This document shows, one piece after another, positions 45,443 through 52,979 of a stretch of DNA of 64,000 nucleotides. Positions within the stretch are counted from its first letter, which is position 1. Every line of letters starts with the position of its first letter. The translations under genes and the position numbers were made by a program. The notes beneath the pieces were generated by a model. The model saw only the letters and a list, made by a program, of their open reading frames with translations. It searched no databases and was not told the DNA's origin. Source of the stretch: Promineifilum sp. (lineage in GTDB: Bacteria > Chloroflexota > Anaerolineae > Promineifilales > Promineifilaceae); NCBI GenBank assembly GCA_019454405.1, contig JACFOH010000006.1, positions 38,262 to 102,261 on the forward strand. The letters are read 5' to 3'.

Positions 45443-45643
45443 ATGGGCACTATTGGATGGCCCGAACTGCTAATCATTCTATTAGTGGTGCTATTGGTCT
45501 TTGGCGTTGGTCGTATCGCTCGTGTGGGTGGTGAACTTGGCAAGGGTGTGGCTGCCTTCCGTGATGGATTGAAGGAGGGGCAGAAGAGCGGCGATGAGGA
45601 AGCCCGCAAGAAGAGCGATTCAACCGACGATCCGGCAGCCTGA
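45443..45643 (+). CDS. tatA: twin-arginine translocase subunit TatA
   Basis: A 66-residue protein: short N-terminal helix (WPELLIILLVVLLVFG) with the FG hinge, an amphipathic helix and a charged tail, the standard TatA form. TatA oligomers make the pore for folded proteins. TAAGGAGAAAC precedes the ATG. It is first in a compact tatA-tatB-tatC operon. Confidence 0.93.
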   Translation: MGTIGWPELLIILLVVLLVFGVGRIARVGGELGKGVAAFRDGLKEGQKSGDEEARKKSDSTDDPAA

Positions 45644-45652
45644 TAGCGGTTA

Positions 45653-46195
45653 ATGGATAATATATTCGGCATTGGTTTGCCGGAACTCATCCTTATTCTG
45701 GCGATCGCTGGAATGGTCATGGGACCGGAGCGCATCGCCCGGACCGCCCGTTCTTTAGGGGTCATGGTGGCGCGCCTGCAAGAGGTGTCGCGGTCATTTT
45801 TTCGCCAGCTCAGCGCCGAGCTGGATTCGGTTGACGAAAAAGGGGGGCTTAAGGATACGATCGAAGAATTAAACCAGCTGCGCCGGCAAGTGGCTGACTT
45901 ACGTGATGAAGTGTTCTCCCTCACCTCCGGGACGATAATGGATAGTAAGCCGGCAATCAGTAAAACCGAGCGCGAGATGGGACGCTCGACGGCGCTGCCT
46001 AGCCTGTCAGCGGAAGCTGAGAAGGCTACCCTGACGACTAAGGATGGGTCATCTGTCTATCGGCCGCCATCCTGGTCTGGGGAAGATTCGGCGATGGGGC
46101 CTCGTGACGAACATAGCAATGGCCTGGCAACCGCACCATCTTCCCCTATGAAATTGCCCAGGCGAGTTAATATCTCCGAAGACCCCGATCGATGA
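45653..46195 (+). CDS. tatB: TatA/TatB-family protein (TatB-like)
   Basis: A 180-residue TatA/B-family protein with the short helix GLPELILILAIAGMVMGPER and an amphipathic helix (RTARSLGVMVARLQEV), then a long, charged, coiled-coil and Ser/Pro-rich tail. The GPER motif and length fit TatB. It would recognise Tat signals together with TatC. It lies between tatA (9-nt gap) and tatC (6-nt gap). Confidence 0.88.
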   Translation: MDNIFGIGLPELILILAIAGMVMGPERIARTARSLGVMVARLQEVSRSFFRQLSAELDSVDEKGGLKDTIEELNQLRRQVADLRDEVFSLTSGTIMDSKPAISKTEREMGRSTALPSLSAEAEKATLTTKDGSSVYRPPSWSGEDSAMGPRDEHSNGLATAPSSPMKLPRRVNISEDPDR

Positions 46196-46201
46196 TCTCC
46201 T

Positions 46202-46972
46202 ATGAATCAGCAAGTTGAAGAACAGCGCGCGTCCGAGAACCGCGCGATCATGGGGGTGCTAGGTCATCTCAATGAACTGCGTATCCGCATGACGCATGCG
46301 GCCATCGCTTTGCTGATTACCGTCATCATTAGCCTTATCTTTGCCGATCGGGTGTTGGAGTTTTTGCTTCAGCCCTACGTGCGGAGCATGGCTAATGGCG
46401 CGACTTTGCAGACGCTGCGGCCGACGGAGGGAATCGAGACCTATTTCCGCGTGTCGTTACTCTCCGGCATCATTCTGGCCATGCCTGTCTTGCTTTACGA
46501 ATTCTGGCGCTTTATCAAACCCGCGTTGAACAAGGGAGAGGAGCGCTATATCTACCTCTTTATCCCGAGCGCCCTCCTGCTATTTGGATTGGGGATCGCC
46601 TTCGCGTGGTTTGTGTTGGCTCCGGCGGCCATCTATTTCCTGGCCAACTTCATGTCAGATGTCTTCCGGGCTGAGTGGACGGGGCAGGAGTATCTCAGCT
46701 TCATAACTCGGCTCTTGTTGTGGATCGGCCTTAGCTTCCAGATGCCGATCATTGTTTATGTTGTTGCGCGTGTTGGCTTGTTGTCGGCCGCGACGATGAA
46801 GAATCAGTGGCGTGTTGCGGTCGTCCTGATCGCCGTTCTCGCGGCCGTCATCACGCCGTCCGTTGACCCGGTGACGATGCTCCTGACAATGGCGCCCCTG
46901 TTTGTTTTGTATATTCTTAGTATCGGGTTGGCCGTTATTGGCGAACGCCAGTTTGAACGCTCCATGGCCTGA
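46202..46972 (+). CDS. tatC: twin-arginine translocase subunit TatC
   Basis: A 256-residue six-helix protein with HLNELRIRMTHA at the start and the family pattern FRVSLLSGIILAMPVLLYEFWRF (in parts), FAWFVLAPAAIYFL and a C-terminal VITPSVDPVTMLL. TatC is the Tat signal receptor. It ends 30 nt before the convergent rhomboid gene. Confidence 0.95.
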   Translation: MNQQVEEQRASENRAIMGVLGHLNELRIRMTHAAIALLITVIISLIFADRVLEFLLQPYVRSMANGATLQTLRPTEGIETYFRVSLLSGIILAMPVLLYEFWRFIKPALNKGEERYIYLFIPSALLLFGLGIAFAWFVLAPAAIYFLANFMSDVFRAEWTGQEYLSFITRLLLWIGLSFQMPIIVYVVARVGLLSAATMKNQWRVAVVLIAVLAAVITPSVDPVTMLLTMAPLFVLYILSIGLAVIGERQFERSMA

Positions 46973-47002: not shown

Positions 47003-47602
47003 CTAGATTTGTCGAGGACCACTGTAATAATAGGCGGCGGCGACTCCGCCGACAATGCCGAACAGATGCCCCTGCCATGACACTCCATTGGCAGGTAACA
47101 CCCCAGCCAGTAATCCTCCATACAGAGCGAGGACGAGTATTGCTAATGCGATCGCGGCAAGGCTTCGCTCGTACCAGGCGTTGACGATCAGGTAAGCAAA
47201 GTAACCAAAGATCAGGCTGCTCGCGCCGACATGGACGGTGTTGCTGGGCGCGATGAGCCATGTTCCCAAGCCACTGATAATTATAATGAGGACTGTGATG
47301 GCCGGGAATTGTTCTTCGTGCCTGGCCATGACCAGAAAGCCGAGAATCAGGAAGGGGGCTGTGTTAGCCAGCAGGTGAGCGAAGTCGCCGTGCAGCAACG
47401 GCGCGAAGAAGATACCGCGCAACCCGATCAACTGGCGGGGGATGATGCCATAACCGTCGAGCGCTCCGCCGAAAAAGAGCTGATCGATGATCTCGATGAG
47501 CCAGAGTGCGATGATGAAGGTCAGGAGCGGCTTCAGCCTGCGCTTTGCATCTTCGCCATAAAAACGGAGGGTGTCTTGTAGGGTATACTCGGGCGTGTTC
47601 AT
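47003..47602 (-). CDS. rhomboid-family intramembrane serine protease
   Basis: A 199-residue (or 202 from GTG 47611) membrane protein with six hydrophobic segments. The catalytic serine is in VGASSLIFGYF and the histidine in WQGHLFGIVGG; HGDFAHLLANT in the first region is also family-typical. Rhomboids cleave membrane proteins within the bilayer. The gene starts 38 nt after the SHOCT-like gene (47641) on the same strand and so is probably the last gene of the DUF2089 operon. Confidence 0.88.
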   Translation of the reverse strand: MNTPEYTLQDTLRFYGEDAKRRLKPLLTFIIALWLIEIIDQLFFGGALDGYGIIPRQLIGLRGIFFAPLLHGDFAHLLANTAPFLILGFLVMARHEEQFPAITVLIIIISGLGTWLIAPSNTVHVGASSLIFGYFAYLIVNAWYERSLAAIALAILVLALYGGLLAGVLPANGVSWQGHLFGIVGGVAAAYYYSGPRQI

Positions 47603-47640
47603 CTTGAACACAATACGTGATACCCCGATCGAAGTTTCAA

Positions 47641-48024
47641 TTACTCAACGAAGATTTCGACGCGCTCCCCGTCTTCGTCGTCAGTGACATCGATTACCTT
47701 CCCGAGTTGGCCACCCTTAACCGCCTCCAGGAGTTCTTCCAGGCGCTGCCCCTCGATCTCCGGGGCGAAACGTGCTCCCATCTTCATGCCTACATTGACC
47801 AACCCCATAGGGATGTTGATGTTGACTTTGTTGCGGCCCGTATTCATATCCGTGACGCGTACGCGAAACCAGCGAGGGGCGCTGGCTCCTTTCAAAGGCT
47901 CCTGAGTTTGGACCTTGTCGCTTTTTGTATCTAATGCCCGAAGTAACTCAGCCCCCTCAGCAGCGCTAATCTTTCCTTCCTCAATCATTTTGAGGATTTG
48001 TAATCTTTCCTCTGTCGTTGCCAT
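47641..48024 (-). CDS. SHOCT-like domain protein A
   Basis: A 127-residue soluble protein. Residues 5-31 form the helical module ERLQILKMIEEGKISAAEGA followed by ELL; residues 48-127 form a second domain (PRWFRVRVTDM ... NVNIPMG-like NKVNINIPMGLV ... EDGERVEIFVE). That second domain is clearly related to the one in the protein at 50448. Members occur in DUF4097/LiaX-like and YvlB-like contexts, but function is unknown. GAGGAT precedes the ATG. Fifth gene of the proposed operon. Confidence 0.8.
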   Translation of the reverse strand: MATTEERLQILKMIEEGKISAAEGAELLRALDTKSDKVQTQEPLKGASAPRWFRVRVTDMNTGRNKVNINIPMGLVNVGMKMGARFAPEIEGQRLEELLEAVKGGQLGKVIDVTDDEDGERVEIFVE

Positions 48025-48043
48025 CGGCTTATCCTCACAGACG

Positions 48044-49024
48044 TTATGAAAGATCCAGCCGCATATGGGTCAATGTTCGCTGGACCGTAAAATTCGCTTC
48101 TCTAAGTATTTGATCGACGTACTCATCCGATTCGGGATGATCGATCCGTATGTTGCGGTGGGGAAGGTATTGTAGACGACGGATGACCTTCGCCAGCAAG
48201 GGGCGCTCCAGTCGGCCGCTGTAGTCCGGTCTGATACGTAATGTGACGAGGTGACTGCGGCCCCATTCGCTGGAGATATTTGCCAGGCCGATTAGTTTGT
48301 CGTCGAGATCGGTCGTGACCCAGGTTTCAAGATGACGACCGTTCATGAAATCCATGGCTCGCTGCCACCAGGTGCGGCGATAGGCGTCCGGTTGAAGAGG
48401 CTCAGGCCAGTTCAGATCGCGGTGCACGTGTGCCGTATCCAGCTCGTAAGCTTCGCGCCATCTTCGCAAGGGGAATGATGTGATAAATGGTTGCGAAGAT
48501 CCGTCGGAATCGACCGGAATCTGTCTGATCCTCGATCGGACCGCGTACCAGGTGGTCATATTCCCGAGGCTGATGTAACCCAGGCTTCGATAGAGATCGA
48601 GCGCTTGTTGATTATCCTTTACAACCTGAAGCAGTATTGTGCGTCCACCCCGCTTTCTTACCGCCTCTGTTGTGGCCTCCATTAATGCTCTGGCGATGCC
48701 TCTACGTCGATAGGAGGGGTGAACCGCGACGTTGGCCACAAGGTATCTGTCCCATGCTCTCGTCGATAGCAGAGAGGCATTGCCAACGATGCGACCGTTC
48801 TCCTGCCAGACGAAACCGTTGGAGAGCCGAGAGGCCATAGGGTTCATGCGATAAAGGATTTCGTTTACCGTTCCGGCGCTGTCCCCAAAGTATTGGCGTT
48901 CATCTCCGTCCAATGTATCGTCGAATACCATTTTAAGCAGTTCGATCACTTGGGGTAGGTCGCGGGATAATTCAACCGGGCGTAACCCATCTCCTGCGCG
49001 GGCTGTTGGAATTGAAACGTCCAT
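48044..49024 (-). CDS. GNAT-family N-acetyltransferase (two GNAT-like lobes)
   Basis: A 326-residue enzyme. The first lobe has the CoA-binding motif VAVHPSYRRRGIARALME and LYRSLGYISLG; the second lobe (about residue 160 onward) is a weaker GNAT-like repeat. Substrate unknown. The start is uncertain: the frame stays open to ATG 49180 (with another ATG at 49075), but family homology begins about 11 residues after ATG 49024; none has a convincing Shine-Dalgarno sequence. Fourth gene of the DUF2089 operon. Confidence 0.8.
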   Translation of the reverse strand: MDVSIPTARAGDGLRPVELSRDLPQVIELLKMVFDDTLDGDERQYFGDSAGTVNEILYRMNPMASRLSNGFVWQENGRIVGNASLLSTRAWDRYLVANVAVHPSYRRRGIARALMEATTEAVRKRGGRTILLQVVKDNQQALDLYRSLGYISLGNMTTWYAVRSRIRQIPVDSDGSSQPFITSFPLRRWREAYELDTAHVHRDLNWPEPLQPDAYRRTWWQRAMDFMNGRHLETWVTTDLDDKLIGLANISSEWGRSHLVTLRIRPDYSGRLERPLLAKVIRRLQYLPHRNIRIDHPESDEYVDQILREANFTVQRTLTHMRLDLS

Positions 49025-49200
49025 GATTCGCTTTTGTCTTGTACCCTGCCACGCACCGGATGTTTCGTCGGACATCACCGGTGAGACACGAGCCCCAGCA
49101 TAGATTGATAAGAGGCCTATGCTCCGGGGCTGCCAGCCTTTATCTAATATATTGTAAACCGGGACAGGGATGATAACCATAGCGAATATGGAGGGATATA

Positions 49201-50415
49201 TTAAGCCTCCAATGCCTCCAATAACATTTGGGCTTCTTCGGGCGATATTTTGCCGTTCTCAACCATTTTCAGGATTTCCATCTGTTCCTGAATTGACACA
49301 GCCTTCTTGGGTGTTGAAGAAGGCTCGGCCGTAAAGTCAAATCCGGATGCTTGCCGGGAGTAGTCAGTCCGTTTACGGGTACGTTCAGCTACCTTCTCGG
49401 CCTTTCTGGCGGCCTTTTCGGAATAGCGCCGGCCAAAATCTCCGCCGAATTTCGCTTCCAGATCGTCCATGACGCGCGAGATATGGCTGTTCACCTCTGC
49501 CTCGATCCGGGCCGCAATGCTATCAAACTCAAAATTGAATTCCATGTCGCCTCCATGATATTTACTTTTGTCATGCTCCAATTCAGATTCTCTTAGGATC
49601 ACCCGACCCTCGGATACTAACGTCAATTCGGCGCCACCCTGACCTATGTGGCCGGCCACCTCGCCTTTTTTCTCGGCAATATCTTCAAGCGAGAGGCGGT
49701 TATCAATCTTTGTGGCTGATGCGCGCAGGTCAAGAGGCAAGCCGCCCGGCCAGCGCACAACAATATCGCCTCTTGCTTCCAACAAATGATGCCCATCGGG
49801 CAACCCTCCGCGAAGGCGGATATCCCCCATGACGCCGGATATGTTGACCAGGCCGCGGACGTTATTGAGATTAACATCCCGGAAGCTTCGTTCAATCGTT
49901 ACGTTACCATGAATAGTGCGCACATCGGAATCGCCGTTAACCGCCTCAATGGTGATGTCGCCTTCGACTAGTCTTACGCTTAGATCACCATGTACCTCTG
50001 CCAGCGCGATATCTTTAGCCCCGCGAATGACGACATCGCCGTTGACTTCCGCGGCGGATAATATCCCGATGAGGCTCTTGATGACCAAATCGCCGTGAAC
50101 AGTGCCTAATTCTGTATCGCCTGAACGAGTGGCGACGACATCACCCTGCACGTATTCGCAGGAGCATGTCCCGATTGCATCCCGGATGATTAGGTTACCG
50201 CTGACTTTCCCGATGGATAGGAGCGCCTCTTCGGGAAGATACAGATGCAGATCGCCCTGACTTGTCACCAGGAAGCCCTTATCTGAATCGTGTAGTTGAT
50301 AGTCTCCTTTCAGTTCCAGAGCTGGTTCAGGCCAGCCTCGAACAACGAGGTCTCCCGCACAGGAATCGACGCGAACAAATGGGGGCTTTGAGATGTTGAA
50401 CCGTTCCCTAGTCAT
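49201..50415 (-). CDS. DUF4097-like beta-solenoid protein with C-terminal SHOCT-like module
   Basis: A 404-residue protein with no signal peptide or transmembrane segment. Residues 15-250 show repeated strands with the pattern xxGDVxIxG (for example GNLIIRD, GDVVIRGAKD, GDLSVRL, GDITIEA, GNVTIER, GDIRLRG), the signature of DUF4097-type solenoids. Residues 290-355 are charged and helical. Residues 374-404 form the module EQMEILKMVENGKISPEEAQ and then MLLEALE, the same module as at the N-terminus of its neighbours. Most DUF4097 proteins face outward; this one appears cytoplasmic. Third gene of the operon; the SHOCT-like gene is 32 nt upstream. Confidence 0.82.
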   Translation of the reverse strand: MTRERFNISKPPFVRVDSCAGDLVVRGWPEPALELKGDYQLHDSDKGFLVTSQGDLHLYLPEEALLSIGKVSGNLIIRDAIGTCSCEYVQGDVVATRSGDTELGTVHGDLVIKSLIGILSAAEVNGDVVIRGAKDIALAEVHGDLSVRLVEGDITIEAVNGDSDVRTIHGNVTIERSFRDVNLNNVRGLVNISGVMGDIRLRGGLPDGHHLLEARGDIVVRWPGGLPLDLRASATKIDNRLSLEDIAEKKGEVAGHIGQGGAELTLVSEGRVILRESELEHDKSKYHGGDMEFNFEFDSIAARIEAEVNSHISRVMDDLEAKFGGDFGRRYSEKAARKAEKVAERTRKRTDYSRQASGFDFTAEPSSTPKKAVSIQEQMEILKMVENGKISPEEAQMLLEALEA

Positions 50416-50447
50416 GTGTATTCCCCTTATCCGTGGTTCAATTTAGC

Positions 50448-50945
50448 TTACTCGATATATATCTGCACGTGTTCGTTATCGTCCTCGTCCTCAACATCGA
50501 TCATCAAACCGTGCCCTCCGGCCTTCACCGTCTGCATTAGCTCGTCGATCTGGAGAGTATCATCGTCCTCTCCACTGAAACGGCGAGCTATACCCCAACA
50601 GAGATTGGCCAGGCTTAACGGGATGGCGATGTTCACCTTTTTCCGATCCGTATCAAGCTCGCTAACGCGGATCTTGAGCCAACGCGGCCGGTGGTCATCG
50701 TTGCGATCGGGGAATATATCCTGATGATGGATCTTAAATGACGGCGGTTCGTCGCTTTTCAGCTCTTCGATAGATATCGCCGGAACGTCCTCGATAGCCT
50801 TCAATTCATCAATGGTCTCGAACGAGATCATATCATCAGCCACTGAGGCCGCCCTGCTGCTATCCAGCAATTCGGTTGCTTCTGCCGTTGAAATCTTCCC
50901 TTCGGCCAGCTGTTGCAAAATTTCCAACTCAGTGTTTGTACCCAT
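50448..50945 (-). CDS. SHOCT-like domain protein B
   Basis: A 165-residue soluble protein. Module ELEILQQLAEGKISTAEATE and LL at residues 6-28, an acidic linker (about 30-80), then a domain homologous to that of the 47641 protein: PRWLKIRVSEL, KKVNIAIPLSL, EHVQIYIE. The two genes are therefore paralogs in one operon, with this copy longer and more divergent. AGGTGAG precedes the ATG. Second gene of the operon. Confidence 0.8.
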   Translation of the reverse strand: MGTNTELEILQQLAEGKISTAEATELLDSSRAASVADDMISFETIDELKAIEDVPAISIEELKSDEPPSFKIHHQDIFPDRNDDHRPRWLKIRVSELDTDRKKVNIAIPLSLANLCWGIARRFSGEDDDTLQIDELMQTVKAGGHGLMIDVEDEDDNEHVQIYIE

Positions 50946-51025
50946 AACAACTCACCTTCATTTCCAAAGGATTAACAGGGTGCGTCGTCCGCGCACGCTA
51001 AAAATGGCAATGTCCCGTATTGGGC

Positions 51026-51415
51026 TTAACCGGTGCCCCCGCGTAATAATTGCAACGCTTCCTCGGCCGTTAATGCTCCGGCCTGGAGTTCATTCAAGAT
51101 ACTTTGTCGGGTTTCTTCAGATAGGCCTGTAGCCGCCGGAGCGCTATCGCCAACTTCGTAACCGAGAGTACGGATTACATCCGTCAGGCGCGCCCGGACG
51201 GCCGGGTAGGAGAGGCCGATCTCCTGTTCAACACGATTGATCTTGCCTTCGCACCGCAGGAATATTTCCACGAAGTCCAATTGTTCGGGACTAAGCTGGT
51301 AGAGGCGGCCGAGAGTGAAATGACCTTCTATCGTCGTATCACAATTCCGGCAATTTAATCGCGTCACATGCAGGTTGCCGCCACAGATGGGGCATTGGCC
51401 AATTACAGGATTCAT
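51026..51415 (-). CDS. DUF2089 zinc-ribbon/HTH protein with SHOCT-like tail (putative regulator)
   Basis: A 129-residue protein. Cys8, 11, 22 and 25 form a zinc ribbon (CPIC ... CRNC); residues 41-85 form a sigma-region-4-like HTH (LSPEQLDFVEIFLRCEGKIN, then RVEQEIGLSYPAVRARL); residues 103-124 form the module QSILNELQAGALTAEEALQL. Such a protein should bind DNA and interact with partners that carry the same module. ATG 51415 has GAGGAC at good spacing; an earlier ATG at 51505 lies inside the promoter. It is the first gene of the operon and has a strong promoter with repeated heptamers. Confidence 0.85.
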   Translation of the reverse strand: MNPVIGQCPICGGNLHVTRLNCRNCDTTIEGHFTLGRLYQLSPEQLDFVEIFLRCEGKINRVEQEIGLSYPAVRARLTDVIRTLGYEVGDSAPAATGLSEETRQSILNELQAGALTAEEALQLLRGGTG

Positions 51416-51476: not shown

Positions 51477-51505
51477 AGAATACAACGAAATATCAATAAT
51501 GTCAA
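51477..51505 (-). promoter_or_regulatory. sigma70-type promoter of the DUF2089 operon
   Basis: Read on the minus strand: -35 TTGACA (complement of 51500-51505), 17-nt spacer, -10 TATTCT (complement of 51477-51482). The predicted start near 51470 leaves a leader of about 55 nt before ATG 51415. Confidence 0.78.
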
Positions 51506-51542
51506 TAACTATATTGATAATTACAATATAATCATTGATAAT
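51491..51542. promoter_or_regulatory. three helically phased ATTGATA heptamers (putative operator)
   Basis: ATTGATA occurs at 51513-51519 and 51534-51540 (each extended to ATTGATAAT) and as its complement TATCAAT at 51491-51497. Start-to-start distances are 22 and 21 bp, two helical turns each, so all lie on one face of the DNA. One sits between the -35 and -10, two lie upstream. This suits a co-operatively binding autoregulator, with the DUF2089 protein as first candidate. Confidence 0.55.
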
Positions 51543-51563: not shown

Positions 51564-52979
51564 CTATGGAGTGGGCCGCATTTCGAGTATGCTCAGGAGG
51601 ACGACATACCCAAAGCCCAATGAGGTGGTTGCCAAGAGGAATACCGGTCCGGCATAGCCTTTACTGATCGCCAACATCAGGGTTAGGATTGAGTAGAGGA
51701 GGAGGGTTCCTTCGACGCCCAACATCACACCAGGTGTCAGTCGATAGCTACGATGGGAGCCTTTAGGCGTGCGTTTGAACGTAAAGTCGCGGCGGAGGGT
51801 TCCATTGATTACAGCCCAGGCGTTTGAGGGGGCCAGGCCGATCGCCACGAGCAGTAGGGCGGGGAAATAGCGTAACCGGTGAAACCAGTCATGATATAGT
51901 TCGTGCTGGGCAAGAATGAATAGGACTGGTTGGCCGAGGCCAAGCATACTGAAGAAAAGCAACCAGGGCGGTAGCTGAGTGCCGGTCAATATCAATGGCA
52001 ACTGAACCAGAAGAAGGATCAGAAGCAGAACGTGGGTCAGATAAGCTGACATGGAAAGCAGAGCATAAATACGAGCCATGCGAGTCTGTCGTTCGGCTTG
52101 CATGATTGGCCGTGCGTACTTGACCATGCATTGCGTCGCTCCCATGGCCCATCTGGCTTGTTGTACTTTGTATGAAAGAATCGTGGCTGGGAGTTCTGCC
52201 GGCACGACAACATCGTCGGCAAAATGAAATTTCCAGCCCTTCAGTACCGCCCTTGTGCTAAGGCATAGATCTTCGCAAACCGTGTCGGCTTGCCACCCTC
52301 CGGCGTCCAGAATGCAATCTCTTCGCCAGATCCCCGCCGACCCGTTGAATTTGGGAAACAACACGGCTCGGTGTCGAACCAATTGTTCCACGGCAAAATG
52401 TTTATCAAGCGCGACCGCCTGGGCGGCCGTCAAGCTCGACGCCTCTTCATTTAGGTGACCCCAGCGGGCCTGGACCGCGCCAAGCTGTGGATCGTCCAGG
52501 AAATACGGGATGGTTCGTCGCAGGAAATCCGGCCTTGGGAGGAAGTCGGCATCCAATATGGCGATGAACTCTCCGGCGGCCTGCGCCAATGACCCCTGAA
52601 GCGCTCCTGCCTTAAATCCGTGTCGGTTGTCTCGATGGAGAATCTGAATGTTGATTTCCTTTTGTTGACATACTTTGACATACTCCGCCGCCAATTCATA
52701 AGTTTCATCGGTGGAGTCATCGAGTACTTGAATCTCCAGTTTGTCGCGTGGATAATCCAGAGCCGTAGCCGCCGTGATAAGGCGTTGAACGACTTCACGC
52801 TCGTTATAGATCGGCAACTGCACCGTCACTGACGGCAAATCGGAGTCGGTTGAGCTTGGCAAAGGGGAGCGCTCTTTGCGAACTTGCAGGAACAAGCCAA
52901 GAGTCAGGAATCCAAATACCCCATATAGCGCCAGTCCGGCGGCGCTGACGATGTGTAGAGCAACGAAGATTGCTGTCAT
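51564..52979 (-). CDS. processive family 2 glycosyltransferase (cellulose/mannan-synthase-like)
   Basis: A 471-residue membrane enzyme. One N-terminal helix, then the GT2 domain with LDDSTDETYE, AILDADFLPRPDF (DxD), CEDLCLSTRAV and the product-site motif QQARWAMG, then four C-terminal helices. The D, DxD, ED and QxxRW set marks a processive enzyme of the CslA type (glucan or mannan). It is translationally coupled to the DUF951 gene just upstream (stop and ATG adjacent). Product unknown. Confidence 0.9.
   Translation of the reverse strand: MTAIFVALHIVSAAGLALYGVFGFLTLGLFLQVRKERSPLPSSTDSDLPSVTVQLPIYNEREVVQRLITAATALDYPRDKLEIQVLDDSTDETYELAAEYVKVCQQKEINIQILHRDNRHGFKAGALQGSLAQAAGEFIAILDADFLPRPDFLRRTIPYFLDDPQLGAVQARWGHLNEEASSLTAAQAVALDKHFAVEQLVRHRAVLFPKFNGSAGIWRRDCILDAGGWQADTVCEDLCLSTRAVLKGWKFHFADDVVVPAELPATILSYKVQQARWAMGATQCMVKYARPIMQAERQTRMARIYALLSMSAYLTHVLLLILLLVQLPLILTGTQLPPWLLFFSMLGLGQPVLFILAQHELYHDWFHRLRYFPALLLVAIGLAPSNAWAVINGTLRRDFTFKRTPKGSHRSYRLTPGVMLGVEGTLLLYSILTLMLAISKGYAGPVFLLATTSLGFGYVVLLSILEMRPTP

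Follow-up and report, generated by a model that had tools for sequence, protein, structure and literature searches.

The contig JACFOH010000006.1 of Promineifilum sp. carries, within the 64,000-nucleotide stretch analysed here (the window), six consecutive minus-strand genes between positions 47003 and 51415, which raise the question whether they work together and, if so, as what. The original prediction had seen in them an operon in which a scaffold controls a regulator of the DUF2089 family, with a rhomboid intramembrane protease cutting an envelope signal. The linked genes, a shared helical module and agreement with a published gene context (Ravi et al. 2024, PMC11237479) speak for the unit and its scaffold-regulator role, while the rhomboid as signal protease has to be given up. 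The window operon is a Chloroflexota variant of this published DUF2089/Toastrack/SHOCT context. With a probability of about one half, we read it as a cytoplasmic, autoregulated stress-type switch, which is probably membrane-proximal.

The first gene (51026-51415, minus strand as all others described for the operon) encodes the DUF2089 regulator, whose previously noticed zinc ribbon and helix-turn-helix correspond to PF22747 (7.6e-15) and PF09862 (3e-20), both above cut-off, and which ends in a SHOCT-like module. It is followed by SHOCT-A (50448-50945), consisting of an N-terminal SHOCT-like module, an acidic linker and a beta-alpha domain that is related by alignment to that of SHOCT-B; by a DUF4097-like Toastrack protein (49201-50415) with a beta solenoid, two long charged helices and a C-terminal SHOCT-like module; by a GNAT acetyltransferase (48044-49024; PF00583, 2e-22), whose start is backed by an alignment of relatives; and by SHOCT-B (47641-48024), in which an N-terminal SHOCT-like hairpin precedes a beta-beta-alpha-alpha-beta-beta domain. 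The last gene (47003-47611) encodes the predicted rhomboid protease (PF01694, 1.6e-24); its assignment to this family is as anticipated, and we judge it to be a neighbour outside the system. Gene positions are unchanged from the original prediction, and the gaps of 80, 32, 176, 19 and 29 nucleotides, read from DUF2089 to the rhomboid, bear out its description of six genes with mostly short spacing.

Four of these proteins share a helical module of 25-30 residues, as had been noticed, which corresponds to the Pfam family PF22746 (SHOCT-like_DUF2089-C). Searched in six frames, the genome yielded only four clear copies, all inside the operon (SHOCT-B 8.6e-12, Toastrack 3.0e-10, SHOCT-A 1.7e-5, DUF2089 8.6e-4; next-best match E 0.014); at 71% completeness of the genome, others may have been missed. 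When the proteins are scored singly against the curated cut-off of 27 bits, SHOCT-B (45.0) and Toastrack (36.0) lie above it and SHOCT-A (25.1) and DUF2089 (19.2) below. Hereby, the module covers residues 101-125 of DUF2089 (51041-51115; 8.8e-4), 6-29 of SHOCT-A (50859-50930; 1.2e-5), 377-403 of Toastrack (49207-49287; 4.4e-9) and 5-35 of SHOCT-B (47920-48012; 6.6e-12), with model helices at 375-386 and 392-403 in Toastrack and at 2-15 and 21-33 in SHOCT-B. The N-terminal position in two proteins and C-terminal position in the other two, described before for the window, is also found across relatives: the module is C-terminal in 116 of 119 DUF2089 and 118 of 132 Toastrack genes and N-terminal in 234 of 237 genes of the SHOCT-beta type, to which SHOCT-A and SHOCT-B belong, all-locus counts that include duplicates because some loci from different searches are the same contig. 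That the module is kept at either end in nearly every member gives the strongest reason to think that the copies act together.

The gene order is conserved as well. Among 40 clusters of relatives, most repeat the order DUF2089-SHOCT-A-Toastrack-GNAT-SHOCT-B, and the intergenic gaps are again mostly short. DUF2089, SHOCT-beta, Toastrack and SHOCT-beta are adjacent and co-directional across Anaerolineae, and reduced forms occur across Chloroflexota. The common form in Anaerolineales is DUF2089-Toastrack-SHOCT-beta-SHOCT-beta, often with an MFS transporter, and several other Chloroflexota show DUF2089-SHOCT-beta-Toastrack neighbourhoods. Named genomes retrieved with SHOCT-B belong to Anaerolineae and related Chloroflexota, the closest being Promineifilum, and SHOCT-beta is present in 65 of 201 genomes sampled across Chloroflexota; SHOCT-B is a partner kept throughout the phylum. 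A pair of DUF2089 and SHOCT-beta is also found on Bacillota plasmids. Beside or in place of GNAT, relatives carry MFS or ABC exporters or a holin of family PF04020, which we take to be that of YvlD.

A Pfam search with the window Toastrack copy gives no match to DUF4097 (PF13349). Its AlphaFold2 model (mean predicted local distance difference test score, pLDDT, 86.7) comprises a confident beta solenoid, two long helices and a C-terminal hairpin, which, together with zero hydrophobic spans, agrees with the earlier description as a beta-solenoid protein without export signal. The best PDB match of the model is 4qrk (E 4.3e-7, with a low TM-score), and orthologs, including one from a Chloroflexus-type genome, match PF13349 directly. 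The modelled fold and the orthologs together mark the third gene as the Toastrack-containing neighbour in this DUF2089 context.

The AlphaFold2 model of SHOCT-B, of moderate confidence (mean pLDDT 75.6), places the helical hairpin before the beta-beta-alpha-alpha-beta-beta domain. This second domain of SHOCT-beta matches no Pfam family, and its fold has no confident Foldseek match (best VIA-align Z 4.7); convincing solved relatives were found by sequence for none of SHOCT-B, Toastrack and DUF2089. In Niallia (L239:4380-4661) and Paraclostridium (L238:4421-4702) the gene after SHOCT-beta resembles, by eye, its second domain without the hairpin. Dehalococcoidia-like genomes carry, between DUF2089 and SHOCT-beta, a membrane protein of 92-94 residues without Pfam family (L215:5291-5569; L213:5768-6052); a profile comparison showed no homology to the SHOCT-beta domain, and the idea that this protein is a membrane form of it was rejected.

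The fourth protein has an N-terminal GNAT domain with an acetyl-CoA loop, in which residues G109-I110 are invariant among relatives, and an apparently degenerate C-terminal half. It belongs to PF00583, and with 68.8 bits it stays below the equivalog cut-off of 86.4 for TIGR01575, the RimI S18-alanine acetyltransferase. An ortholog occurs once per genome in 51 relatives and lies at the cluster in 42 of them according to gene maps and coordinates; reduced clusters, e.g. DUF2089-GNAT-SHOCT-beta, keep it. GNAT is a real and frequent partner of the cluster. At one locus (L084) a GNAT ortholog stands outside any SHOCT cluster and is followed by a YvlD-like holin gene, which suggests a link between GNAT and holin that is independent of DUF2089.

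Upstream of DUF2089 a predicted promoter (51477-51505, minus strand) combines a -35 element TTGACA (51505-51500), a 17-nucleotide spacer and a -10 element TATTCT (51482-51477). With 10 of 12 consensus positions it does not reach significance by itself (p about 0.10). Among relatives, 25 of 31 operon upstream regions reach at least 10 of 12, with a mean of 10.3 compared to 8.0 in shuffled sequences; the operon promoter is conserved and near-consensus. The -35 element is overlapped by a dyad, TCAATA-tagt-TATTGA (51502-51517, minus strand; half sites TCAA-N8-TTGA), which we regard as a candidate operator. In 100 operon upstream regions TCAA-N8-TTGA was observed 17 times (0.8 expected), TTGA-N5-TCAA 10 times (1.4 expected) and TTGA-N6-TCAA 8 times (1.1 expected), the last two together 18 times (2.5 expected), so that dyads are enriched at fixed spacings. 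At matching places, 26 of 74 operon promoters carry dyads, compared to 3 of 39 non-operon promoters (p 9e-4), a comparison in which phylogeny is only roughly controlled, so that the true strength is lower than this value implies, related genomes sharing dyads partly by descent. The three control promoters with a dyad also look like operon promoters missed by the gene labels. In one relative, the dyad element also accompanies a second DUF2089 gene. In most genomes of the genus, a search for the dyad-plus-promoter pattern found the DUF2089 operon; matches elsewhere were few, and no wide regulon emerged. From the position of the dyads we infer that DUF2089 binds them.

As a hypothesis, we propose that DUF2089, by binding these dyads, would control the operon that encodes it, with repression as the simplest mode. 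The C-terminal hairpin of DUF2089 would be held by its counterparts on the Toastrack scaffold or in the SHOCT-beta proteins, and the state of this complex would set DUF2089 activity by partner switching. GNAT may acetylate a component or serve as output; exporters (MFS, ABC) or the YvlD-like holin could be other outputs of a response to envelope stress or antimicrobials. The binding, release and signal steps of this switch are those that we infer. A more specific and general version can be offered only tentatively: a switch contained in one operon would be widespread and have DUF2089 as its DNA-binding output; SHOCT-like hairpins on Toastrack and the paired SHOCT-beta proteins, interchangeable with one another, would titrate the regulator off the tandem TTGA/TCAA dyads of its promoter, and dedicated acetylation by GNAT would tune this switch in Chloroflexota.

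Several observations weigh against the autoregulated switch. Many Anaerolineales clusters are without GNAT. The dyad is present in about a third of the operon promoters, is shared by descent in the genus of the window and did not turn up ahead of the DUF2089 gene of Niallia. The core is without a membrane protein, and its membrane proximity rests on published inference. Moreover, one classical SHOCT domain (PF09851) gave no self-association in size-exclusion tests (PMC3581485), which concern a Pfam family different from PF22746 and address self-association, not hetero-association.

This last result would also suit a different role of the hairpin, namely that of a localisation tag which takes the proteins independently to the inner face of the membrane; their joint function would then require no contact between hairpins. 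Ravi et al. indeed predict membrane anchoring by SHOCT-like domains (PMC11237479). The zero hydrophobic spans do not favour such a role, and four copies in one operon, kept even in the DNA-binding DUF2089, fit mutual recognition better; we thus consider the tag possible but clearly less probable than the switch. Less probable still, and in our view unlikely, is that the operon mainly constitutes a GNAT- or exporter-based resistance or modification unit, in which SHOCT and Toastrack proteins are accessory assembly factors instead of parts of a signalling switch. GNAT is kept in the reduced DUF2089-GNAT-SHOCT-beta form, MFS, ABC or YvlD-like holin genes stand alongside in relatives, and annotations of leaderless bacteriocin loci include DUF2089 genes (PMC7332713, PMC10707071), as such a unit would suggest; however, clusters retain DUF2089, Toastrack and SHOCT-beta but differ in the effector gene, which some lack.

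That the rhomboid cuts an envelope signal and thereby releases DUF2089 from a hetero-oligomeric scaffold is highly improbable: although the gene lies 29 nucleotides after SHOCT-B on the same strand and encodes a rhomboid domain, of the 29 relatives with an ortholog, only five, all of the same genus, have it near the cluster, other genes intervene in genus members, and the operon offers no membrane-spanning substrate. The protein itself matches PF01694 and shows GASS, GHLFG and HGDFAHLLAN, the catalytic Ser and His motifs expected of a putative rhomboid protease. Conserved co-occurrence, by which the model was to be checked, in effect failed for the rhomboid, and on this linkage it was rejected as a system component. 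In the mapped genus loci, either a RIO-kinase gene or an opposite-strand gene stands between SHOCT-B and the rhomboid. Since linkage is confined to the genus and none of the other five operon proteins has a membrane or hydrophobic span, which leaves no candidate substrate among them, the rhomboid is best read as a neighbour and not as a component.

Around the operon, further genes were observed. The RIO-domain kinase gene that separates SHOCT-B from the rhomboid in relatives of the same genus (L042:9269-10261) is absent from this position in the window. A TatC gene adjoins the rhomboid in same-genus loci, and the two may be older neighbours; in the window, TatA/TatC-type genes (45443-46972, plus strand) point toward the operon. 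On its other side, upstream of DUF2089 and on the same strand, lies a gene for a family 2 glycosyltransferase (51564-52979), the operon promoter being in between; among relatives, a gene of this family precedes the cluster in many cases (18 loci counted).

Proteins of the DUF2089, Toastrack and SHOCT-like kinds are widespread. Having lost the rhomboid, the model gains GNAT as a conserved partner, and a defined operon with shared hairpins and a candidate operator turns what was a guess from gene context into simple binding tests. The literature searched yielded no DUF2089 regulator that has been characterised by experiment.

The Enterococcus faecalis LiaX, itself a Toastrack protein, and the Bacillus subtilis YvlB operon resemble the window operon in combining Toastrack and SHOCT-like domains, and a YvlD-like holin (PF04020) stands beside some Chloroflexota clusters. 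In CAB15517.1 the SHOCT-like domain is N-terminal, whereas it is C-terminal in the window Toastrack protein, which moreover scores 14.4 against the LiaX model NF038025, far below its cut-off of 350. LiaX is described as controlling membrane adaptation in enterococci (PMC11601895); neither a LiaFSR nor a PspC gene was found in the window operon. For PspA systems, a functional analogy to Toastrack contexts has been proposed (PMC11237479). PspA/IM30 (PF04012) is not encoded in the operon and has no match in the genome of the window, at its 71% completeness.

The closest counterpart is the four-gene context of Ravi et al., in which DUF2089 and Toastrack occur with SHOCT-like domains and which was proposed to link membrane stress to transcription (PMC11237479). 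In common with it, the window operon has a SHOCT-like domain on its Toastrack protein, and a membrane-linked stress signal to transcription is proposed for both. Partners with LiaI-LiaF-TM, B-box or PspC domains occur there, whereas the window operon has none; a Pfam search of the six window proteins detected no LiaI-LiaF-TM or PspC domain, and Ravi et al. treat such a partner as a variant, not as required. Neither GNAT nor rhomboid is named in the main text of that study. Compared to this context, the window unit has two paired SHOCT-beta proteins and a GNAT partner in addition; besides these, our analysis extends the published picture by showing that the module positions are fixed and by proposing a candidate operator.
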